IMG/VR virus record: IMGVR_UViG_3300025012_000251
Coordinates: 1-28,029 of that record
Strand: one strand, 5' to 3'
DNA: 28,029 nt
Source: a virus
Position 1 is the stretch's first letter. Every line of letters begins with the position of its first letter. The position numbers and the translations under genes were made by a program. Shown here in pieces: positions 104 through 28,029 of this stretch. The notes under the pieces were generated by a model. That model searched no databases and had not been told where the DNA came from. It worked only from the letters and a program-made list of their open reading frames with translations.

Positions 104-1558
104 GTGAGTCAGCTTAGAACGTTTGAGATTCTCGCAAAGTATATTGGCAAGGCCTCTAATGTGAAGGTGCGTCTTGAGAAGGATGCAGTACCGCATGCGT
201 ATCCTGAAACACGAGAGATTGTGCTGCCGTACAACATCGCTGAAGACAGAGTCTATCCTGCCATTGCTGAGTGTATCCATGAAGCCTGTCATATCCGTTA
301 CACGACTTTCAAAGTAAAGGATGTTATCGATGATGATTACGAAATGCACATTCTTAACGCCATCGAAGACATTCGGATTGACAAGAAAGCATTTGGAATA
401 TTACCAAATATCCCAGGTTTTTACGAAGACCTCTACGCTGACATCAAGAAACGACAACCTCCCCCCGCTGAGCGTAAGAAGATGGCGTTCGAGGGTCGCG
501 TGCTGGTCGATATCATTTGTGACCAGGAGGGCTTTGGTCATTACAAGTCAGGGGACAAGGAAGTTGAAGAGTTCATTGCTGATTACGGTATTAGTCATAA
601 AGTCTATGAGGCGCGTGATGCTCTGGATAATGGCGACCTTAAGAAAGCTCGGAAGAAAGTTAAAGAGATCGCTGATGCCTTTGATGTAGACCGCAAGAAG
701 CCAAAGCCTAAAGACCCTAATGCTCAAGGTGGTGGCGGAGCTAGACCGGCAGCGCAGCAGGTAGCTGATGCAATGAAGGCTATTGGTAAAGATGCTTCGA
801 AGATCTGGGGTCACACAAGCGATGTATCAAGCGCTCCATTCATGGTGCTTGATCCGCTTGCTCTACGCGAACAGACGCAAAAACAATTCGAAGAACTCTT
901 GAAAATGAAAGAAGAGCAGCTTTTTATCCATGAAGAAGGTGGCCTTAACACGGAAAATCTCACCTCATTCTTTACTGAGGACATTGAGGAGCTGTTTGTG
1001 GATTCCAGAATCATTGAACCGAAGAAGAGCAAAATCATTATTGTTCTTGATGCCTCTGGATCCATGAGCTCTTCACTTCTCTGTGGCACGTCAGCTAAGG
1101 ATGCGGTCGCGAAGACTGCCGGGTCAATCAAAGAAGTAATCGACCGCGTGAACGAAGCTGAGGGCCTATGCGTTGATTATGAGATCGCTGCCTTCAACGA
1201 AAACTACATCAAGCTAGATAAAGAAAACTGGATGAAACAGTACAACCAGCATACCGGAGGGACCTGTGTAATTAACGCGTTCAAACAGGCACAGAAGGAC
1301 CTTCTTAGCGATTTTGATATAGAGGGTAACAAAATGATCGTGTTCTTAACTGACGGTCAAGTGGACTCCACTGAAATTGACCAGGTTAGAGCTGAGATCA
1401 TTAAGACGAACTCCGAAATTAAGGTTCTGATCCTGGGAGTGGGAGCTGATCCGCATGGATCATTCGTTCAGAACATCATTGAAGATGCCAATATCATGGA
1501 CCTCGAATCTGCGGATGTCATCCTACTCGAAGCAATCATGGGTGCTCTGGGGTCCTGA
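104..1558 (+). CDS. VWA-domain protein with N-terminal HExxH motif (CobT-like)
   Basis: This 484-residue protein starts at GTG 104, five bases after a strong AAAGGAGG site; a GTG at 100 hits a stop within six codons. The N-terminal part has HEACH at residues 59-63, a zincin-type HExxH. A charged linker with a Gly run lies near residue 205. The C-terminal half is a von Willebrand A domain: the MIDAS motif DASGS is at residues 316-320, followed by a Thr in HTGGT and an Asp in FLTDG. Phage and bacterial proteins with this layout resemble CobT/NorD-type VWA partners of MoxR-family AAA+ ATPases. A partner gene might lie left of the window, which is inference. Whether HEACH binds metal is unknown. 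The VWA call is secure; the role is not. Confidence 0.85.
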   Translation: MSQLRTFEILAKYIGKASNVKVRLEKDAVPHAYPETREIVLPYNIAEDRVYPAIAECIHEACHIRYTTFKVKDVIDDDYEMHILNAIEDIRIDKKAFGILPNIPGFYEDLYADIKKRQPPPAERKKMAFEGRVLVDIICDQEGFGHYKSGDKEVEEFIADYGISHKVYEARDALDNGDLKKARKKVKEIADAFDVDRKKPKPKDPNAQGGGGARPAAQQVADAMKAIGKDASKIWGHTSDVSSAPFMVLDPLALREQTQKQFEELLKMKEEQLFIHEEGGLNTENLTSFFTEDIEELFVDSRIIEPKKSKIIIVLDASGSMSSSLLCGTSAKDAVAKTAGSIKEVIDRVNEAEGLCVDYEIAAFNENYIKLDKENWMKQYNQHTGGTCVINAFKQAQKDLLSDFDIEGNKMIVFLTDGQVDSTEIDQVRAEIIKTNSEIKVLILGVGADPHGSFVQNIIEDANIMDLESADVILLEAIMGALGS

Positions 1559-7774: not shown

Positions 7775-8785
7775 TCAGTCCTCCAGAGCCCTTTCGAAGG
7801 CTTTTAATCCTGCGTTTTTGTTATCGTAAACCCCCTCTAACAACCGCACATAGTTACGATCGTTCTGGATGAACCAGTCGAACGTCGCCCGCCATGACTT
7901 ATCCGGCATCCTACCCATGCAAAACTTTGAATCCAAAATCTTGTCAATCGCTGCTGCCCAGTCCTTCTCAAACAATTCCTCCTTGAGCCTCTCACGCACT
8001 TTAGCCTGTCTCGATGCTGAGAAACAGAGCACCTTCGGTAAAGCTTTCGAGTTCCAGTAATTAAGTATATTACTGAGTGTATTAGTATGTTTATTACTAA
8101 AGCCACTACCCAGCTTTTGAAGAGAGTGAGTAAGAGGGTTAGGGGGAGTATGAGGGGGGAAGGGAGAGAGAGCGAGAGGGACTTTTACTTCCCCCAGAAG
8201 AGCTTGTTTGTGGGTCTCTAATGGGTTTTCGGCCAGCCTAAATAGCTGCTTTTCCAAGGCTTTAGGTTTGGTCTCGACGTGGGTGGGCCGCGTCGTTGTT
8301 GGGGGTAAAACTGTGGGTCTCATGTGTGGGTCAGACCCATGGGTCTCATGACCATTAGCTGATGCCATAGAACCGTTACCACGTATAGCTTTAGCGTAGG
8401 TCAGTTTGTGGGTCTCAGTTGTGGGTGAGACCCATGGGTCTTTAACGCCCTCAAGCGCTTTGATCTTTTGATACGAGCTCCAATTTATAATTGTGAGCAG
8501 AGACCCTTCTTTGTCTCCCTCGATATCCAAGATCTTATGCTTGTGGTGGAGACGTTTAAGAGCGTTCTTTACTGTCGATTCGGGCATCCCTAAGCCCTCA
8601 GCGATCTTCCGCCGTGCGAGTACAAGTTGACCAGGGATTAAGTCAATGAGTTGGTTCCGGAACAGAACCTTATTGCTCTCCTGATCGGGGGCTGTGACTA
8701 GCAGGTAGATGAACACACAAAGAGCGTTGCTGTCCCGCATCACGGAACTAGAGACAATCTTTCTGTGTAGAAGAATAGCGCTCAT
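7775..8785 (-). CDS. Phage replication initiator (lambda O-like / replisome organiser)
   Basis: The 336-residue product starts MSAILLHRKIV. Residues about 45-110 form a winged helix with PGQLVLARRKIAEGLGMPES and STVKNALKRL, then a wing ending SLLTIINWSSYQ. A long Pro/Thr/His-rich linker (about 115-230) follows. The C-terminal domain carries RQAKVRERLKEELFEKDW and SWRATFDWFIQNDRNYVRLLEGVYDN, typical of phage replication organisers that load the helicase. Layout and neighbours fit an O-like origin-binding protein. The linker DNA carries iteron-like repeats (8207-8443), as in lambda O. No good Shine-Dalgarno site lies at the usual distance before ATG 8785; the nearest is in the hairpin 8797-8870. 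Confidence 0.85.
   Translation of the reverse strand: MSAILLHRKIVSSSVMRDSNALCVFIYLLVTAPDQESNKVLFRNQLIDLIPGQLVLARRKIAEGLGMPESTVKNALKRLHHKHKILDIEGDKEGSLLTIINWSSYQKIKALEGVKDPWVSPTTETHKLTYAKAIRGNGSMASANGHETHGSDPHMRPTVLPPTTTRPTHVETKPKALEKQLFRLAENPLETHKQALLGEVKVPLALSPFPPHTPPNPLTHSLQKLGSGFSNKHTNTLSNILNYWNSKALPKVLCFSASRQAKVRERLKEELFEKDWAAAIDKILDSKFCMGRMPDKSWRATFDWFIQNDRNYVRLLEGVYDNKNAGLKAFERALED
8058..8100. other. AT-rich tract in the initiator gene (possible DNA unwinding element)
   Basis: Bases 8058-8100 have only about 8 G or C among 43, in a region otherwise richer in G+C. The tract lies inside the initiator gene, downstream of the repeats in its reading direction. With the polypurine tract (8117-8181) between it and the repeats, it has the layout of an unwinding region at a lambda-type origin. 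Its coding meaning is only the C-terminal linker. Confidence 0.55.
8117..8181 (+). other. Polypurine tract next to the iteron-like repeats
   Basis: The + strand from about 8117 to 8181 is almost all purine (G and A) with only scattered T and C; the coding strand is the pyrimidine strand. It encodes a Pro/Ser/Thr-rich linker. Such strand-asymmetric tracts occur next to the AT-rich part of some phage origins, including lambda. It may adopt unusual structure or simply reflect Pro/Ser codons. Confidence 0.5.
8207..8443. repeat. Iteron-like repeats, candidate replication origin
   Basis: The motif TGGGTCTCA occurs at 8314-8322, 8340-8348 and 8409-8417, and TGGGTCTC at 8211-8218. The exact 14-base palindrome AGACCCATGGGTCT occurs at 8333-8346 and 8428-8441. 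The two best modules (8312-8346 and 8407-8441) match at about 30 of 35 positions in the same order: TGTGGGTCTCA, two bases, TGTGGGT, then the palindrome. They are 95 bases apart, which is not a multiple of three, so they encode different peptides (VSPTTETHK against HETHGSDPH). They are therefore conserved as DNA. In lambda, initiator iterons lie in the same linker. Confidence 0.75.
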
Positions 8786-8796
8786 GTTTAAAAGGT

Positions 8797-8870
8797 GCTC
8801 TCCGGACGCTCCTGAGAGGGGAAATCAGGTCAAGGCCAAAAGGAGTTAAGGCGCCTGAGGTCCGGAGAGC
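8797..8870 (-). promoter_or_regulatory. Hairpin leader of the initiator gene
   Basis: A perfect 11-bp inverted repeat, GCTCTCCGGAC (8797-8807) with GTCCGGAGAGC (8860-8870), fills most of the 94-base gap between the DUF669 gene and the initiator gene. Read on the - strand, the only Shine-Dalgarno-like sequence before ATG 8785, GGAGAG, is inside the 3' arm and about 12 bases from the start. Folding of the mRNA would hide it, so initiator synthesis may be limited at translation. No T-run follows, so a terminator is unlikely. Confidence 0.6.
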
Positions 8871-8879
8871 GATCTTCGT

Positions 8880-9350
8880 TTACGGCCGCTTAACCCACGA
8901 AGGGACATCTTCGATGGATGCAGGATCAAACCCAGGATTCCCTTGCGCGGGAGCGTAGGGGTCCTTTGTGGTTGTTTTGTTCTTGGTCTTGCCGTTGTAG
9001 GTGTCAGTGAAAATATTCATATACACCTTCCGACCGACACATGCATCAAGGAGGTTCTTGAACTCCTGAGCGTCTGTATCGATTGGGGGTAGGCTAGACA
9101 CGTCAAACTGGAGAACCTGTCCCAGAAACGAAGATAGACGCCATAGCGCCGATTCTGTGAGGGTATGGTACTCCCTTAAAGATGCCCCCATATGTTCGGC
9201 GGGCGCATTAACTTCCGTTGACCACTCGACCTGCTCATTTGAAGAACCCTTTGATGCGATCTTTTTCCAGCTATTGATCGTCACAAGGTAAGCTCCATCT
9301 GGTAAAAGCGGGTGTTCCCCTTCTCCTGCTGCTTTGAAATTTGCTAACAT
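8880..9350 (-). CDS. DUF669-like phage DNA-metabolism protein
   Basis: ATG 9350 follows AAAGGAG. The 156-residue product has features of the DUF669 family: an N-terminal FKAAGEGEHPLLPDGAYL, a strand VEWSTEVNAP, then a helical section with LLDACVGRKVYMNIFTDTYNGK and a disordered Pro-rich tail DPYAPAQGNPGFDPASIEDV. DUF669 proteins in phages are encoded next to Sak4-type ATPases and are thought to act as single-strand DNA-binding partners. The adjacent ATPase gene here fits this. The exact activity is not shown by the sequence. Confidence 0.8.
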   Translation of the reverse strand: MLANFKAAGEGEHPLLPDGAYLVTINSWKKIASKGSSNEQVEWSTEVNAPAEHMGASLREYHTLTESALWRLSSFLGQVLQFDVSSLPPIDTDAQEFKNLLDACVGRKVYMNIFTDTYNGKTKNKTTTKDPYAPAQGNPGFDPASIEDVPSWVKRP

Positions 9351-9365
9351 CGTATTGCTCCTTTG

Positions 9366-10157
9366 TTATACGTCGTTGACAGTATCGCCCTTGATTAGTT
9401 GCAACTCACCAGAAGACAAGGGCTTGAATGGTTTAGCCTTCTGGTAACTGAACTTCCGAACCTTGTCAAAGATGAAACACAAGTCGGCCGGTTCAAACTT
9501 ATCCACACCCCGGTACTGGCTCTTAGCCAGGATGGTTGGGGTAGGTTCAAAACGGATATAGCGGTCCTCTGTCTTCTCGTACTTTTCAAGATGACCAACC
9601 ATATCCACGATTCCGCACAGCTCTGTTGCGAGGGATGGAAATACCTTCGGTACAGTACGGGTCTTGTCACCGTCCGCAGACTTCTCGATTGTGAACGGCA
9701 TCTCCCAGGCATTGAAGACTACATTTATTCCGACTTCGATCAGGTTCCTGAAATTGTACGTGTACTCGCGGAGTTTGGATGCGGCCTCGCCCTTGTCAAC
9801 CAACGTAGCAAAGTCCTTCTTCTTCATCTTCACAATCGCTAACACGAACCACTCCTGAAGCTCTGAGATGTTGTCGATGACAACGTACTTGAACGGGTGC
9901 TTCTCCGTCAGCAAGAACCGGTACAGCCCAGCAATCTTGTCGAGATCCCGATCCATCTCGAACACGGTGTGTCCGCTGCCAAGCAGTGCTCCGCGCCCGC
10001 ACTCAACGTTGATGATCAGGGTTTCCCCAACGGGCAGACGCTTAATGCAAGTCGTCTTCCCGGTCCCTGGATCAGCGTAGATGACAACCGCAATACCTCT
10101 GTCAACGGTGTCGCCGATAACCTTGAAGTCCTTACGTGGATCGTATGCGACGGCCAT
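9366..10157 (-). CDS. Sak4-like RecA-fold ATPase (phage nucleotide-binding protein)
   Basis: ATG 10157 follows GGAGGTC. The 263-residue product has a Walker A motif ADPGTGKT at residues 28-35 and a Walker B strand KYVVIDNI with D95. It is of the AAA_24/Sak4 type, a short RecA-fold ATPase found in many phages beside DUF669 or single-strand-binding genes. It assists single-strand annealing recombination. No lid domain or extra motifs are seen. The neighbours (DUF669 on one side, a Cas4/RecB-like nuclease further upstream) complete a typical phage recombination cassette. Its start touches the stop of the HNH gene (TAATG). Confidence 0.85.
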   Translation of the reverse strand: MAVAYDPRKDFKVIGDTVDRGIAVVIYADPGTGKTTCIKRLPVGETLIINVECGRGALLGSGHTVFEMDRDLDKIAGLYRFLLTEKHPFKYVVIDNISELQEWFVLAIVKMKKKDFATLVDKGEAASKLREYTYNFRNLIEVGINVVFNAWEMPFTIEKSADGDKTRTVPKVFPSLATELCGIVDMVGHLEKYEKTEDRYIRFEPTPTILAKSQYRGVDKFEPADLCFIFDKVRKFSYQKAKPFKPLSSGELQLIKGDTVNDV

Positions 10158-13267: not shown

Positions 13268-16200
13268 CTATCCTTTCGATTTAGACGTTCTGATTTTTTC
13301 TCTCAACCAGTCCATCGTGTGCTTGCTGTTCTCATAAAAATTAGGTTCCCGAGGGTTTATCCCTGCTTTCTTCCACTCATCCGGTCTCAGCTTCTTAGCT
13401 ACTGAAAATAAAGCAGCGATGCGCTGAGCCCTATCAAGCTCTTCGTTACGCTTATTGATCGCATTGACGGCGCCTATCTCATAGCCGGGGAAGTCTCTTG
13501 CATAGCCAATGATCGCGTCCTTTAGGTCAGCTTCGGAGACCTGAGCTATCTGCAATGTTCGCTCACTGATCCTATCCAGCTTATCCTTTGTGAACCGACG
13601 GAACTCTGAAGGACTGATGACCTTGCTACCAATAAAGATCGGCGTCTCGTCACCGCGCATAGACTTCGAGATGCTGACACCGGTAAAGTATTGGAGCATG
13701 TACTGGTCGAGCGTTTTGTTCCTGTCTGCGTTGGGTCTAGCGAAATCAGGACCGGCAACGGAGAGCAGCGTGTAACCGGAAGACAACCAGTTCACTATGC
13801 CATCAGCAGGAGTACCAAAGTTCGGGCGCCTCAATTTCTGGGACGGGTCGTTAGGGTCTTTGTCTGCGATGTAGTAAGCGATCATCCTTGGCACGACGCC
13901 GAGACGGCTCACAAAGGCTTCCTCACCTTTACCCATACCGAACAAAGAGAAATTCTCAGGCAAGAACTCCTGCATGGTCGTGAACTCCTGCATGAGCGGG
14001 ATCTTCATATACATCGGTTCGCCGCGCTGGTTATACCCCATAAAAATAGAACTCTTTTTACCAACAGGATTCTGGGATGCCATCAGCGGGCGCTTCTCTT
14101 TACTGAACAGCGCTGTGGTCACGAGATTTAGAATCTGGATCAACCCAACGCCAAGCATGGTTCCGATTGCGAACTGACGCAGGATCATCTGCTGCATATG
14201 CTTTCGCTCAGACGGGAGAAGCTCACCCCAGAAAGCGCTCTTGGTCATGCGCCGCATAAACTTATTACCAGCGTTGTCGTTCGGCCCAAACATCGTGGCC
14301 GCGCCTTCACCGGTCAATCCCAACGCACCCGTAGCGTAGCGAGCCATGGTGAAACTGAACTCACGGGCAAACAAGAAGTTGTTTAGAAAATTACCTTCCC
14401 TGCCATGGATGTACTTACCGGGAAAGTTCATCGTCAGGTTCGTGCGCTGACCGGCCAGTCGTTTAGCCATCGGCTCTGGAAAACCACGGCGCATAAAGTC
14501 AGCCTTGGTCTCGTAGTAAAGTGTTTTCGACATCCCGCCAATCCAGGTCTCCCACAAATTGCGAGAGAACGGTGTCATGAACTGAATCGTTTGCGCCCAC
14601 GCGCCCTTATCAGGATTCAGCAACGGCTCTAGCGATTCGTAATCCGACATCTGCTGGAAGGCTGTTGAAGCGCTTACTGTGGCAACACCTGCGCTCATCA
14701 GCTCAGTGACTTCCTCGGTTACGGTGCGGCCGGTGCTTGGAGCAAGCGTTGAGAAAGGCTGTCTCTTTACCGGGAGAAGGAACGCTTGAGGATCATGCGT
14801 GATCGTAGCGATGGTGCTTTTTAAGATCTTCTCCATGTTCGAGCCGCCGTTATCCTCGCCCTTCGTTAGCATCATACCCAACGCAAAGGATGACCCGACC
14901 TGATACAGCTGAAAGAACGGGGAGTACATGATCATCATCTTGGACAGGAACGCAGCTCTGGAAACATACTTCTCCACCTTGCTGACGTCACCAAACTCAT
15001 TCTTGAAAAACCATTCAAACTCTTCAAAGGCTTTCTTCGGCATCCACGGAAGCTCTTTGAGATTCCCTCGGCGATTTACGAGCGCTTGGTAGCTATTGTT
15101 CTCTGAGTACCCGAGCGCTTCCATGATCTGATGGATTTCATGAATGTTTTTCTTCTCACCGGTTCCGACACCGAAGATCTCATCAGAGCCATCCGGCTTA
15201 ATCCAGTAGCTCTTGTCGTTTTCAGTGTTGGATTTATCCTGTTTCCAACCATTCTTCTTGAGCCAATTAGCAAGCGTGCTCTTGTACATTACGATAGGAA
15301 GACCCATAGGAATCAGCGGATTCTCCCATGACTTAAAAGTATTCGCTAGGCTAGCGTTGGTTAAAGACTTCATCCCGTCGTACATGTAGCGGGCAGTTGC
15401 TGTCGCTGCGTTGTTAGCGATCTCGAACTTCTGCTCGTCTCTAGCGCGATGCTCGAAGTCATCAGCATCGATGCTCTTATGCTGGGTCTCTGAAGCGATC
15501 GAGTCGTTGGTGAAGGTGGATCCACCCGGACCACGCAGTCTCGTCTCCTCGGATTTCTGGTTGTGCGCCGGGAAGTAACCGTGCGTGATGCGCGTATATA
15601 AATCGGAAGAGTCGTGATGCCCTGCATTGATGAGCTGGTCACGGACACGGGTGATCTCAGCGTTGGCGAAAGCAACGGCTTGCTGCTCCTCCGGATGCAG
15701 CTGCTTCCAGTAGAAAAGCTCCGGCCGAGCCTTAACGCCTCCGAGCATGGCCTCGTTGTTGCGAAGAAATGCTTCTGACGGGATCGATCGTCCTTGCCCA
15801 ACGAGCGTCTTAACCACCCGCGTTGGCTTGCCGATAGCATCCCTCGATGTCACGCGGACCTCTTCCATGGATTTCCACATGATATTCAGGCGAGCATTAA
15901 CCAATTCCAACGGAATTGAAAACGAACCGTCCGCGAGCTTCGTGACCAAGTGCGGCGTGTTCTTGATGATGGACCGGTACGCAGCCCACGTTATCTCACT
16001 GCCAGCGTGCCACGCTAGGAACTCAGCCATGCTCCGGTCAGTCTGGAAGGTCAACTTCTGACGCTTAAACATATCGTTCATAGCGTTCATCATCTGTGAT
16101 TCTGTGTACGCCCGAGCGTTGGGGTGCATGTTCTTGAAGACCATATCAGCGTCTTCTTTACCAGCTCCGTTGACGACGTTAACCGTGTTCTCAGGAATCT

Positions 16201-19200
16201 TACCCCACAGCATGTGAACGAATCCTAGGGATCCATTAGCAACCTTGGTGACAGCGCTCCAGGCCTGCCGGTAAGCCGACCCCTTCTTTGTGGGTGCTTC
16301 TGAGCTGTAGACCGGTAACTCTTCAGGCATCTCCGTAGGTGTGTCTAGACCACGATCCTTCGTCCAATCGCCATCTAGGGCCTTTCTTGTGGATGTGAGC
16401 AGGGTTCTCAGCTCTTCGGGTAGCAAGTTAAGGATCTCTTCAGCCTTAACCTTGCCGTCCCGGACCTTACTTAAGAGCTCTGCCCCTTCAGCGTTGGCTA
16501 AATACGACCCGACCTTCTCCAGGATCTCACTGTCGAAGACGCCGCCTTCTTCTTGCTGAAGCTCGTACTCTTCGAGGAAATCAAGCAACGCGTTGTACAG
16601 GTTGTATTCACGGGTGTTCTCCCTCAGAGTCTCCATGGCTTCTTGGTTCTCTTTAAGAACCTTCTCACCCTGCTCGGTCTTGGCCCATAGCGCAGCACCT
16701 TGATCGGTCATATCCCGCTCAGCCTTGTCGATATTGAAACTCTCACCGCTTTCGTAATCCACAACTTCTTCCGTGGAATCCGCTCCACGCTTAGGTGTCC
16801 TCATCCCGGCTTCCTGCGACAAGCGCATTGCTAATTTTTCGAGATACGCTTTCTCGCCCATGAAGTCACCGGGCTTGTAGGTATCTGAGAGCTCGTCATT
16901 TTTAATCCCCATCGTATTTGGGACCACGTTAACAATGTCAACTCTAGGATTATCGTGCAGCTCGATGAGCGCCTTAGTGGAAAGAACTCTTGAACGGAAA
17001 CCGTTGTCTCCAGATTCAGATCCCTCGCCGACCTCCTTCGCGCGCAGCTGGATCTCATCGAGGGTATTTTTATCCAACGCTCTGAAAGCAGATCCCTCAT
17101 CTTTTCCCATTGCTTGCTTGGCTGCGCTGGTCTTGAGAGACACGTCGTAATAAGACACAACGTACTCTGTCGTTGAGTTTGGGTCTAAGCGCCAAGGCAT
17201 ACCAGGGATATGACCCTTAATCTTATTTGCCATGACATCCAGGATTCTACGGATCTCGAGATCGAGCGTTGGGGTCTCTTTGCCTGTAGCGTTTACTTTG
17301 TCGCGGACCAGCTCCAACGCCAGGATCTTTGTCAGGTTCTCGTCCATGATCGTTGAGTCAATGCCGAGGAGAATATGGACTTGTTCGTGCGCTAAAGCGT
17401 AAGCGGCATACGCACCGCCCGGATCTTGGAAGTCATCAAACGTATCTGTGGACAGAGCCTCAACGCCTTTGGATGTGCGCAGCTTGCCTTGTTTAAGAGC
17501 GTTGTAATCATTTCGCAGCATCACGTCATCGATGATGATCTTGGATGTGACGATAGAACCGCCAACCCGAGCCTTAGCACCAACCTTCACTGGAGCCTGG
17601 CCCTCCTTCAGAAGAGCGTTCAGCTCTTTGGCTATCCGAGCAATCGTTGGTTTATCGTTGACCAAGCGAGCCTTGATGAGATCAGATCTTTTCTCAGCAA
17701 TCTTGTCAGCGTTCATCCGGACAGCGATATTGCCTTTACGGATAACCTCAATCTTGCTAGCGAACTTCTCGTACACGCCCATAAGAACTTCTTTGGCGTC
17801 ATCGTAATTTTTCCAGAACTCTTTACGGTTCTTTGTGTGCAGCTCGGTGGGGAGCTTATCCTCCGAGAGCTTTCCGACCACATCGCCACCACGAGGACCA
17901 AGCTTTTCTTTTAGAAGATCGTACGCAGTCTTTTTAGCTTCGCCTTCGGCGCGAGCCTTTGCCATCTCGACGATCAATTCCTGTTCGTTTGTAACCTGCC
18001 CCTGTGGAATTATTGACAAGATTTCGTCGCGACTCACAGTGAAAGACGAGATAGTTCCATCAAGCCCAGCCGCTATTCTTTTCTTAGAGAAGGACTCCGC
18101 GACCTCCTTTGATCGAGTAACAGACATGGGTCCAGAAGACTTTGGCCCAGCCCTGTAAACCGTCACCCGCGACCCAAGCTTCTCTTCCCTGAACATAGCG
18201 CTTATCTGGTTATCGAAGAACGGTCTGTTAGCCGGATCTTTCGCCATGGAGACGAGGTTATCGAGGCTTATTTTGAGGGAGGTTGGGTCCCCCCAGGTCT
18301 GCGACCGATAGTCCAACTGCGCATTAAGGATAGCTTTCCTAGTTTCAGGTTTCTGGTTAGCTTTCTCGAGCGCTTCATGGATCTTCTGACGTTCAACAGC
18401 TAAGTCCAATCCGCGCTGAAGCTGCTTTGCTTTTTTTGCATCAGCTATCAGACCGGTAAGAACCTTCTCTCTGTCTCTGAGCGCCTGCTTGAACTTTTCA
18501 TTACCGCGAATAGACTCGCCGTAAGCCCAGGCGTCCTCTGTGTTAGCGAAAGTCAGCCGGACTCTTTGATTGGCTTTAGCAACCTGATCACGCATTTTAT
18601 CCAACGCTGTTTTCTTTTCGATAACAGCGATTGAGCCCTCAACGGTCTCTGTTTTCTCAGAAGCTTGTTGTTGTTTTGCTTGATCTACAGCTTGAGCGAC
18701 GGTGATCTGATGCATGGAACGAAAGGCCATCTCTGAAGGAGACTCTGTCTTAATACGACGCCGAGCCTTCTCTTTCTGCTGGGCTTCTTTGATCGCATCC
18801 TTTACTTTAGCACCGCGCTCAACGTCATCGTCCCATAGAGTAAACTCCTCGTTAAGCTGATCGTTATCGAGACTGTCCATAAAGCTTTTGATCGGACCGT
18901 GAGGCTCGGGTCCATCGCCCTGCTGGAAGATTGTGTGCTTGTAATGCACAACCCCATCTTTATCCGCTGTCTTTTTGAACCCGCTAAACTTCCAATCCTT
19001 TGTATCTGTATCTCCGACAAAGAAATAAAGTTCGTTCTTAAATTCTTCGCTCAACTGAGCCGGTGTCTTGCCGCGCATTTCATCGATCGGCATCAGCAAC
19101 AATTTCTTTCTGAGAGAAGCTGGCAAGCGAGTGTCATCAGAGATGTCGATGCCGAGCTTATCCTTAACAACCTGTCTCTTGTCTATGTAATCAACATCTT

Positions 19201-20761
19201 TAATGCCGTAGGCTTTATCGGCTTCGACCATAGCTTTTGCATCTTTGATGCGGTGAGCCGTCGGGTCATCGTCAACGCTCGCGTAATCGATTACTTCCGG
19301 AGGCGCTATGGTCAGCGAGTTGAACGTCTTGCGCTGCTGGTCCAGGTCGTTTTGGCGGATAATAACTTGCTCGAACTTGTCGCGGATCTCTTTGGGCAAG
19401 GCTTCGATGAAGCGGGCTCTAACCATCGGATCGTCCATGAGCTCAAGAACTTCTTTCGGATCAAGAGCTCTCTGTTCCGCGAGCTTAGCGTACCGCTCAG
19501 GAAGAGAATCCAGCAGGGCCTGTTTGTCCTTGGGAGACATCTTCGAAAGAGCTGAGGGAGTGATCTCCTCGAACGCTTTTTGTTGCATACCGCGCATCTT
19601 GAGACTGCTGACTGTGGTGGTAAGACCGCCAACGCCACCGCCCAAGATTACTCCGACTAAGCCAGATTCCAATCCGCGTTTCTGGATCTCGCTGCTAGAC
19701 CATTGACCTGTTGGCGTAGGAGCCATCCTGGTCATGTTATCCACCATGTCCTGGCCAACACTAGCGAAGTACTCTTCCATTCCCTCAACACCAGCGCTTG
19801 CCCCAACTACAGTCATGATTTTAGAGAACGCTTCTTTTGTTGTCTGAAGACCGAGATCTGAAAGCATCTTCGCTCCAAACTTAGAGATTGGAACCGTGCC
19901 ACCAACGACTTCAGAGAATCCGTCGATCGCTCCGCTCAAGACAGAGTCCAGCAATAAGTTCGCTTTCTCTAACGGTGGCTTACCGCTACGAACACGGGCC
20001 TCGCTCTGCTCTGTGAGCTGAGCGTATTTATTCCCAGCGGAAATTGCCGACAGCCCCCCGAGTAATTGATATGACGGGACTCCGTATAGTGCGGCAGCTG
20101 CTGTTCCAAACGTTTGAGGTAGGTTCTCAGCGACAGCGAGACCGAGAAACTCACGAGCCTTAGAGTAGTCTGCGAATTTTTTATTCTCTGGCGTGCTAGT
20201 GGCTTTAGCGATAGCGTTGGCTTTATCAATTAACGTGAACAGAGTCTCGCCCTTAAACTTTCTTGATCTGACATCCAACGCGTCATGCGCTTTATCCAAC
20301 GCTCGCATAGCCGGATTCTTTAACAGGAACTCCGGAGCTTCTCTCCCAGATACGGTGAACCCAAACAGCGAGTCAATGCCTTTAAGCTTAGACCCATCAG
20401 CTTTCACACCCGCAGTCAGCACATTCGGAAGGTTCACGACGGTTTCATACGCCAGCGGGACTGCTTGAAACCCACCCTGGATCATCCCAACGCCCGCAGC
20501 TCCCATCTGAGAAATCAGATCCGGAGTCTTCGAGTTGATGACGGGGTGATTTAAGCTGTCGATGAACTTAACGATGGCTTGGCCGGTATCAGCGGTCTTG
20601 CTAGCCTCTAAGTTGTCAAAGAAATTTCCCTTAGATTCCGGAGCCACAGCCTGCGCATCTGGATTGGTTTGAAAGTCATCAAAGAAATTACCACTTTTCT
20701 TTGGCGCTGTTGCTGTTGGAGCTAAGTGGGAATCTTGAAAATCATCAAAGAAATTAGCCAT
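13268..20761 (-). CDS. Giant virion-associated polyvalent protein (2497 residues)
   Basis: ATG 20761 follows GAGGTTC. The N-terminus has three linear repeats, NFFDDFQ (3-9 and 25-31) and NFFDNLE (46-52). A Gly-rich segment follows near 370-385, then a coiled coil (about 690-790). Residues about 863-935 look like an ADP-ribosyltransferase: VYRAG, SVTRS, then EQE (926-928). Residues 1125-1129 are HEQVH, a zincin-type HExxH, followed by LGID. The C-terminal third has hydrophobic segments near 1945 and 2190-2215. Polyvalent proteins are known in phages as very long, multi-enzyme proteins carried in the virion and delivered with DNA. Its place beside internal-virion-type genes supports this. There are no N4-type RNA polymerase motifs. 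The exact substrates are unknown. Confidence 0.75.
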   Translation of the reverse strand: MANFFDDFQDSHLAPTATAPKKSGNFFDDFQTNPDAQAVAPESKGNFFDNLEASKTADTGQAIVKFIDSLNHPVINSKTPDLISQMGAAGVGMIQGGFQAVPLAYETVVNLPNVLTAGVKADGSKLKGIDSLFGFTVSGREAPEFLLKNPAMRALDKAHDALDVRSRKFKGETLFTLIDKANAIAKATSTPENKKFADYSKAREFLGLAVAENLPQTFGTAAAALYGVPSYQLLGGLSAISAGNKYAQLTEQSEARVRSGKPPLEKANLLLDSVLSGAIDGFSEVVGGTVPISKFGAKMLSDLGLQTTKEAFSKIMTVVGASAGVEGMEEYFASVGQDMVDNMTRMAPTPTGQWSSSEIQKRGLESGLVGVILGGGVGGLTTTVSSLKMRGMQQKAFEEITPSALSKMSPKDKQALLDSLPERYAKLAEQRALDPKEVLELMDDPMVRARFIEALPKEIRDKFEQVIIRQNDLDQQRKTFNSLTIAPPEVIDYASVDDDPTAHRIKDAKAMVEADKAYGIKDVDYIDKRQVVKDKLGIDISDDTRLPASLRKKLLLMPIDEMRGKTPAQLSEEFKNELYFFVGDTDTKDWKFSGFKKTADKDGVVHYKHTIFQQGDGPEPHGPIKSFMDSLDNDQLNEEFTLWDDDVERGAKVKDAIKEAQQKEKARRRIKTESPSEMAFRSMHQITVAQAVDQAKQQQASEKTETVEGSIAVIEKKTALDKMRDQVAKANQRVRLTFANTEDAWAYGESIRGNEKFKQALRDREKVLTGLIADAKKAKQLQRGLDLAVERQKIHEALEKANQKPETRKAILNAQLDYRSQTWGDPTSLKISLDNLVSMAKDPANRPFFDNQISAMFREEKLGSRVTVYRAGPKSSGPMSVTRSKEVAESFSKKRIAAGLDGTISSFTVSRDEILSIIPQGQVTNEQELIVEMAKARAEGEAKKTAYDLLKEKLGPRGGDVVGKLSEDKLPTELHTKNRKEFWKNYDDAKEVLMGVYEKFASKIEVIRKGNIAVRMNADKIAEKRSDLIKARLVNDKPTIARIAKELNALLKEGQAPVKVGAKARVGGSIVTSKIIIDDVMLRNDYNALKQGKLRTSKGVEALSTDTFDDFQDPGGAYAAYALAHEQVHILLGIDSTIMDENLTKILALELVRDKVNATGKETPTLDLEIRRILDVMANKIKGHIPGMPWRLDPNSTTEYVVSYYDVSLKTSAAKQAMGKDEGSAFRALDKNTLDEIQLRAKEVGEGSESGDNGFRSRVLSTKALIELHDNPRVDIVNVVPNTMGIKNDELSDTYKPGDFMGEKAYLEKLAMRLSQEAGMRTPKRGADSTEEVVDYESGESFNIDKAERDMTDQGAALWAKTEQGEKVLKENQEAMETLRENTREYNLYNALLDFLEEYELQQEEGGVFDSEILEKVGSYLANAEGAELLSKVRDGKVKAEEILNLLPEELRTLLTSTRKALDGDWTKDRGLDTPTEMPEELPVYSSEAPTKKGSAYRQAWSAVTKVANGSLGFVHMLWGKIPENTVNVVNGAGKEDADMVFKNMHPNARAYTESQMMNAMNDMFKRQKLTFQTDRSMAEFLAWHAGSEITWAAYRSIIKNTPHLVTKLADGSFSIPLELVNARLNIMWKSMEEVRVTSRDAIGKPTRVVKTLVGQGRSIPSEAFLRNNEAMLGGVKARPELFYWKQLHPEEQQAVAFANAEITRVRDQLINAGHHDSSDLYTRITHGYFPAHNQKSEETRLRGPGGSTFTNDSIASETQHKSIDADDFEHRARDEQKFEIANNAATATARYMYDGMKSLTNASLANTFKSWENPLIPMGLPIVMYKSTLANWLKKNGWKQDKSNTENDKSYWIKPDGSDEIFGVGTGEKKNIHEIHQIMEALGYSENNSYQALVNRRGNLKELPWMPKKAFEEFEWFFKNEFGDVSKVEKYVSRAAFLSKMMIMYSPFFQLYQVGSSFALGMMLTKGEDNGGSNMEKILKSTIATITHDPQAFLLPVKRQPFSTLAPSTGRTVTEEVTELMSAGVATVSASTAFQQMSDYESLEPLLNPDKGAWAQTIQFMTPFSRNLWETWIGGMSKTLYYETKADFMRRGFPEPMAKRLAGQRTNLTMNFPGKYIHGREGNFLNNFLFAREFSFTMARYATGALGLTGEGAATMFGPNDNAGNKFMRRMTKSAFWGELLPSERKHMQQMILRQFAIGTMLGVGLIQILNLVTTALFSKEKRPLMASQNPVGKKSSIFMGYNQRGEPMYMKIPLMQEFTTMQEFLPENFSLFGMGKGEEAFVSRLGVVPRMIAYYIADKDPNDPSQKLRRPNFGTPADGIVNWLSSGYTLLSVAGPDFARPNADRNKTLDQYMLQYFTGVSISKSMRGDETPIFIGSKVISPSEFRRFTKDKLDRISERTLQIAQVSEADLKDAIIGYARDFPGYEIGAVNAINKRNEELDRAQRIAALFSVAKKLRPDEWKKAGINPREPNFYENSKHTMDWLREKIRTSKSKG

Positions 20762-26875: not shown

Positions 26876-28029
26876 TCAAAATAGCGCGAGAAACGCACTG
26901 ATTGTTAACGGACTTGTTGATGGTGAACTGCTTGGACTCGCGCTCACACTCGTAGAAGGCGACGCGCTCGGTGACGAAGACGGACTCGGTGAACTCGATG
27001 GCGAAGCGCTCGGTGATGGCGAACTTGACGGCGACGGCGATGACGATGGCGACGAGCTCACGGAAGTACTCGGCGACGGCGATGTCGACGGAGACGGCGA
27101 GCTTGATGGCGATGAACTTACTGACGTACTCGGAGAAGGACTCGTAGACGGCGACGGCGATGATGATGGGCTAGTGCTCGGTGACACGCTGGGTGAAGTC
27201 GAAGCTGACGTACTCGGCGATGCGCTCGGCGAGCTCGATGGCGAAGCGCTCGGTGAGCTCGAAGCCGATGTGCTTGGAGATGCACTCGGTGAAGTCGACG
27301 GCGACGTGCTAACCGAAGCACTCGGCGAACTCGATGGCGATGAACTCGGCGACGTGCTAGCCGAAGTACTCGGGCTCGTAGATGCTGATGACGATGGCGA
27401 GCTTGACGGACTCGGACTCGAGCTCGGACTATTGCTCGGGCTCGTGCTCGGGCTCGGGCTAGAACTTGGACTTATACTTGGGCTCGTACTTGGACTTGGG
27501 CTCGCGCTCGGCGAAGTCGAAGCACTCGTAGACGGCGATGCACTCGGACTTGAGCTTGGAGACGGGCTAGTGCTCGGCGACGTGCTTGGAGAAGCGCTCG
27601 GGCTAGGTGACGGCGACGTGCTCGAGCTCGCACTTGGCGAAGAACTTGCGCTAGAGCTCGGGCTCGATGACGGAGAAGAACTCGGCGATGAGCTTGGAGA
27701 AGTGCTCGGGCTCGGCGAAGAACTTGGAGAAGTGCTAGGAGACGAGCTTGGGCTCGTGCTCGGGCTCGGGCTAGAGCTCGAACTTGCGCTTGGTGACGTG
27801 CTCGGACTCGCACTTGCGCTAGAGCTCGGACTACTGCTCGGGCTCGGCGAAGAACTTGGGCTCGTGCTCGGGCTAGAGCTCGGCGAAGAACTTGGGCTAG
27901 GTGAAGTACTAGGGCTCGTACTTGGGCTCGTGCTCGGGCTCGATGACGGAGAAGAACTCGGCGATGAGCTTGGACTGCTAGTGACTTCAGTCATCACAAT
28001 CGTTTCATCGTTCCCCGAAAGACTTCCAC
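26876..28029 (-). CDS. Partial protein with a long Ser/Pro/Thr/Ala repeat tail
   Basis: The frame is open to the right edge, with no stop or start site before 28029. Reading at the edge gives GSLSGNDETIVMTEVTS before the repeats. A start at 27997 has no ribosome site, so the gene is most likely longer and its N-terminus is outside. About 350 residues are tandem SPSx and TSPx units (S-P-S-S, S-P-S-T, S-P-S-A), ending SPLTISAFLALF. Serine codons switch between AGY and TCN, so the DNA is less uniform than the protein. The order next to the adaptor gene suggests a virion surface or fibre protein. Function unknown. Confidence 0.7.
   Translation of the reverse strand, partial: GSLSGNDETIVMTEVTSSPSSSPSSSPSSSPSTSPSTSPSTSPSPSSSPSSSPSTSPSSSPSPSSSPSSSASASPSTSPSASSSSSPSPSTSPSSSPSTSPSSSPSPSTSPSSSPSSSPSSSPSSSASSSPSASSSTSPSPSPSASPSTSPSTSPSPSSSPSASPSTSASTSPSASPSPSTSPSISPSSSPSPSTSPSNSPSSSPSPSSSPSSSASTSPSTSASTSPSSSPSSSPSASVSTSPSTSPSASPSTSASSSPSASPSSSPSASPSTSASTSPSVSPSTSPSSSPSPSTSPSPSTSVSSSPSSSPSPSTSPSPSTSVSSSPSSSPSPSSSPSPSASPSSSPSPSSSPSASPSTSVSASPSSSPSTSPLTISAFLALF

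Follow-up and report, generated by a model that had tools for sequence, protein, structure and literature searches.

The question raised by this locus is whether the replication initiator gene of an uncultivated phage also contains the phage's origin of replication. A preliminary description of the 28,029-nucleotide stretch analysed here (hereafter the window; IMG/VR record IMGVR_UViG_3300025012_000251) had proposed a lambda-like origin built into that gene. The gene and its neighbours are the following:

7775-8785, minus strand: replication initiator gene, 336 aa, O/DnaD-like by its PHROG profile matches
8880-9350, minus strand: SSB-like gene, upstream of the initiator on the same strand
9366-10157, minus strand: Sak4-like ATPase gene, upstream of the initiator on the same strand
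Minus strand, likewise upstream of the initiator: HNH gene

In profile searches, the product of 7775-8785 matched phrog_10469 'DnaD-like helicase loader' (1.2e-22), phrog_2514 (5.2e-19) and phrog_345 'replication initiation O-like' (4.5e-17). Three profiles, phrog_2514, phrog_345 and phrog_5810, are matched by lambda O and the window protein alike, which places the latter in the O/DnaD-like superfamily; on phrog_2514, the regions matched by the two proteins are for the most part different. Against lambda O over its length, a hidden Markov model of the window's initiator family gave a non-significant E value of 0.44. Pfam matches were limited to weak helix-turn-helix hits, Phage_rep_O (the lambda O N-terminal family) being absent among the initiator's matches up to E = 1. 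No sequence relative of the initiator was found in the PDB, no close relative of it or of the neighbouring Sak4 gene in the viral contigs, and no close relative of it in the genome contigs. The annotated gene order of Lactobacillus phages Lrm1 and Lc-Nu is similar to the initiator/SSB-like/Sak4 neighbourhood of the window. In TP901-1, the gene of ORF13, annotated as DnaD-like, also follows ssDNA-annealing and SSB genes, as in the window.

The gap 8786-8882 (minus strand), upstream of the initiator start, has a strong predicted RNA fold (z = -4.77) with arms GCTCTCCGGAC at 8797-8807 and GTCCGGAGAGC at 8860-8870. The structure, without a match in Rfam, may serve as a leader element or as an operator.

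An AlphaFold2 model of the initiator, built from 41 aligned sequences, has the following layout:

8450-8785, minus strand: N-terminal winged-helix domain, residues 1-112 (pLDDT mostly high; helices and strands arranged as in a winged helix)
8099-8449, minus strand: disordered linker, residues 113-229 (pLDDT mostly 39-59)
7778-8098, minus strand: C-terminal helical domain (pLDDT about 85-96 over residues 231-320)

The C-terminal domain bears the motif FDWF...N(Y/F)V..LEG.YD, which is conserved across homologues, and the modelled winged helix is the presumed iteron reader. Foldseek matches to the PDB were generic and weak (ArsR, TubR and CodY winged helices, E about 0.01), while the viral proteins matched by the model were named replisome organizer or replication initiator. 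An 84-residue entry, the 'O protein' of Escherichia phage ECP1, matched with an rmsd of 1.6 and a TM of 0.88 (target length). Every repeat described below lies in the linker DNA (residues 115-193), and the repeated sites therefore lie between the DNA-binding and C-terminal domains. Profiles and the predicted linker agree with the claim that the repeats fall within the linker of an O-like initiator.

The repeats consist of two modules and a lone unit:

8405-8443, minus strand: iteron module A, three 13-bp units AAAGACCCATGGG, TCTCACCCACAAC and TGAGACCCACAAA, with a palindrome at 8428-8441
8310-8348, minus strand: iteron module B, three 13-bp units TGAGACCCATGGG, TCTGACCCACACA and TGAGACCCACAGT, with a palindrome at 8333-8346
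8207-8219, minus strand: lone iteron unit C, AGAGACCCACAAA, with a 13-nt exact match to a module A stretch

The exact palindrome that had been claimed, AGACCCATGGGTCT, was found at both sites and at no third site in the window even with 2 mismatches allowed, the shuffle expectation being 0.12 matches. The similarity of the two modules was also borne out, the 35-nt stretches 8312-8346 and 8407-8441 being 91% identical at an offset of 95 bp. The further partial copy proposed at 8207-8225 corresponds to a 13-nt exact match (8206-8218 = 8404-8416). AGACCCA/TGGGTCT occurs 7 times in the 231 bp of 8211-8441 and 7 times in the remaining 27.8 kb, and Tandem Repeats Finder independently reported a period of 13 at 8401-8426. 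This order exceeds that of the preliminary account, as it comprises triplets of tandem 13-bp units headed by an exact palindrome, plus a lone unit. The repeats span nt 345-579 of the initiator gene and form the densest local repeat cluster of the window, the Ser/Pro-repeat gene at the right end excepted. The latter (26876-27997, minus strand) is a 373-aa reading frame made almost wholly of Ser/Pro repeats. A search of the viral contigs with a longer module motif gave zero matches. The 14-bp palindrome was found there in 22 contigs at one site apiece, a chance-like distribution, and was set aside.

The origin proposal was open to refutation by homologous initiator genes that lack such repeats. 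The sample comprised 160 viral-contig loci from profile searches and 12 annotated phages, and a gene was scored as repeat-bearing when its 12-mer repeats exceeded those of all 60 synonymous shuffles. Most homologues carry their own repeats at the same linker place: 86 of 154 distinct initiator genes passed, the window gene included, compared with 6 of 213 other genes of the same loci. About 44% of the relatives are without significant exact repeats. In control runs with 10-mers, lambda O passed (0 of 500 shuffles reach it), as did 80alpha, and TP901-1 failed despite its literature-reported gene-internal origin; the test is therefore conservative, and missing exact repeats in a relative are not proof of absence. 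The larger alignments of the initiator family contained zero stretches conserved enough for a genome-contig search; 41 additional distant loci came from scanning the genome contigs with a smaller one.

The repeat clusters of the relatives lie mostly at residues 81-160 (centre 101-140), directly after the winged helix. In the 30 bp that follow them, the AT content exceeds the gene mean by 13 percentage points, and on the coding strand no other part of the averaged linker is as rich in purines. The dominant spacing is most commonly 11 nt (40 genes), followed by 22 and 23; in 89 of 113 genes it is not divisible by 3. Most relatives use an 11-bp spacing, whereas the 13-bp unit of the window is out of helical phase. 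Where the winged helices are nearly identical, 98% of gene pairs have repeat words in common; the share falls to 16-32% at intermediate winged-helix similarity and to 0.2% for unrelated pairs. These pairs are non-independent, however, and codon sharing in the Gln/Asn/Thr-rich linkers may add to the agreement. The gradient is suggestive of co-evolution between repeat words and winged helices. In one distant relative (L118), the iterons at gene nt 409-453, CGAGAGCCACAA, resemble the window unit TGAGACCCACAA in 10 of 12 bases. This likeness was dropped as evidence, the winged helix of L118 not being close to that of the window.

Repeats within a coding sequence might also have arisen by slippage, or be repeats of the protein itself, functionless in a low-complexity linker. 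A disordered linker may indeed vary freely, and the forward copies at gene nt 371, 440 and 569 share one frame, in which they encode Glu-Thr-His. The two modules do lie in different frames (95 = 3x31+2), as had been stated, but with three of the five forward copies in one frame this is not true of every copy; the other two are in other frames. The 13-bp step shifts the frame unit by unit, so that the protein is not repetitive: the units occupy all three frames and yield no repeated peptide. In 5000 synonymous recodings with the protein fixed, AGACCCA/TGGGTCT occurred 1.09 times on average and at most 6 times, against 7 observed, and no 35-nt self-match in 300 recodings was better than 25/35, the observed best being 32/35. 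Such repeats are also missing from the neighbouring genes. The view that the repeats are kept for the DNA and not the protein was thus confirmed, synonymous recoding never reproducing the pattern. On the frame changes and the recoding, the protein-repeat explanation was rejected, and we consider it, together with slippage, very unlikely.

Exact palindromes are typical of dimeric operators and the gene itself encodes a winged-helix protein, and the repeats might accordingly be an operator by which the initiator or another phage regulator controls transcription of the replication genes. However, more than 340 bp of the gene precede them, and a search nearby found no promoter-like site beyond chance expectation. 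The arrays of relatives, moreover, have many units, mostly without palindromes and with an AT-rich flank, and control of transcription in place of an origin is in our judgement improbable. The two palindromes could also pair in the mRNA, forming a long hairpin with an effect on its translation or decay: the 16-nt arms 8333-8348 and 8426-8441 are fully complementary and the 151-nt RNA folds at z = -4.46. Self-pairing is, however, expected of any repeated palindrome. A hairpin leaves unexplained the direct repeats formed by unit C and the remaining units (TGAGACCCACA), and in most of the relatives inspected the repeats are direct and tandem, with no such pairing. A function as an mRNA hairpin is thus extremely improbable.

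Origins inside initiator genes are established for lambda O (PMC5043065). They are established in the homologous position for TP901-1 and Tuc2009 as well, where the direct repeats to which each replisome organiser binds lie in the organiser's gene and act as the origin (PMC8965321). SPP1 oriL sits in gene 38, and a gene-internal origin was inferred for 80alpha from the lack of complementation of ORF20 in trans (PMC5499656). ORF20 matched the window family model (E 1.6e-11), and a putative origin is annotated at its nt 236-461. 80alpha and SPP1 gene 38 thus have an initiator-gene-embedded origin, as proposed for the window, but a different repeat sequence. A DnaC-like loader adjoins ORF20, whereas none was identified among the window genes scanned. 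TP901-1 Rep showed very weak similarity to the family model (E 0.08), and the TP901-1/Tuc2009 repeat sequence is unrelated to that of the window.

In lambda, four 18-19 bp iterons are directly followed by an AT-rich, purine-asymmetric region with nearly all purines on one strand (PMC5043065, PMC7466680), and each iteron contains an inverted repeat (PMC7466680). The four annotated lambda iterons occupy nt 349-433 of the O gene, against nt 345-579 for the window repeats, which comprise two modules of three 13-bp units and a lone unit. The corresponding elements of the window are:

8119-8178, plus strand: purine tract, 53 of 60 purines
8045-8110, no strand assigned: AT-rich block, candidate unwinding element, about 74-76% AT

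The purine tract is the most one-sided 60-mer of the window with both strands counted. It is 40-46% AT and lies on the non-coding strand of the initiator gene; the pyrimidine-rich coding strand opposite encodes a Pro/Ser/Leu linker. The AT-rich block is not unique, 26 of the 27,970 60-mers of the window matching or exceeding it in AT. It starts about 100 bp beyond unit C, apart from the purine tract, and runs into the beginning of the C-terminal domain coding region. The purine tract and AT-rich region that had been described both exist, but their arrangement resembles that of lambda only loosely: the AT-rich region of lambda is beside the iterons, while in the window the AT block is distant and the tract lies on the strand opposite to that of the family trend.

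Membership in an initiator superfamily that lambda O also matches by profile, the position of the repeats, at the place of the lambda iterons in the linker, and the presence of the homologues' own repeats there support the core of the origin idea well; the finer lambda parallel, in the order of purine tract and AT-rich region, is weaker. As far as sequence can tell, the phage very probably has an iteron-type replication origin inside its own initiator gene, bound by the encoded protein, and we infer that the 8200-8445 region functions as that origin. In the proposed mechanism, the winged-helix domain would recognise the AGACCCA-containing units, and several initiator copies would assemble on modules A and B and unit C, distorting the DNA. 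A nearby AT-rich stretch would then open, the best candidate for the site of opening being 8045-8110. The C-terminal domain may bring the host replicative helicase, either directly or via a host loader.

Gene-internal origins are known already, and the window is a further case with unusual palindrome-headed 13-bp triplets. A broader proposal, for and against which we see equal chances, is that a gene-internal origin is the plan of the whole O/DnaD-like superfamily, in which the iterons of each phage co-evolve with its winged helix, whose coding sequence lies a few dozen bases upstream. The window phage would then be a variant in which palindrome-headed 13-bp triplets replace the usual 11-bp helical-phase array. 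If this is true, the initiator-iteron recognition code would be readable from sequence alone. With the present analysis, the likely origin of an uncultivated phage is narrowed to about 250 bp. Judging by the comparative test, many O/DnaD-like phages could have their origins called from frame-independent repeats directly after the winged-helix domain, and pairs of initiator and iterons could help to decipher binding specificity. Of the by-products, the broad survey of linker repeats is the most useful.

GC skew was rejected as an origin marker. The cumulative curve peaks near 6 kb, at the switch of coding strand (about 6000), so that the skew follows the direction of transcription and not the origin; the record may also be a fragment. 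Elsewhere in the window, 13268-20761 (minus strand) is a single open reading frame of 2497 aa for which a PHROG search gave no match. It adjoins podovirus-like structural genes, and 23960-26215 matches an internal virion protein profile. Finally, the product of 104-1558 (plus strand), 484 aa long, weakly matches peptidase-like and other phage profiles, and its C-terminal half looks like a von Willebrand factor A domain.
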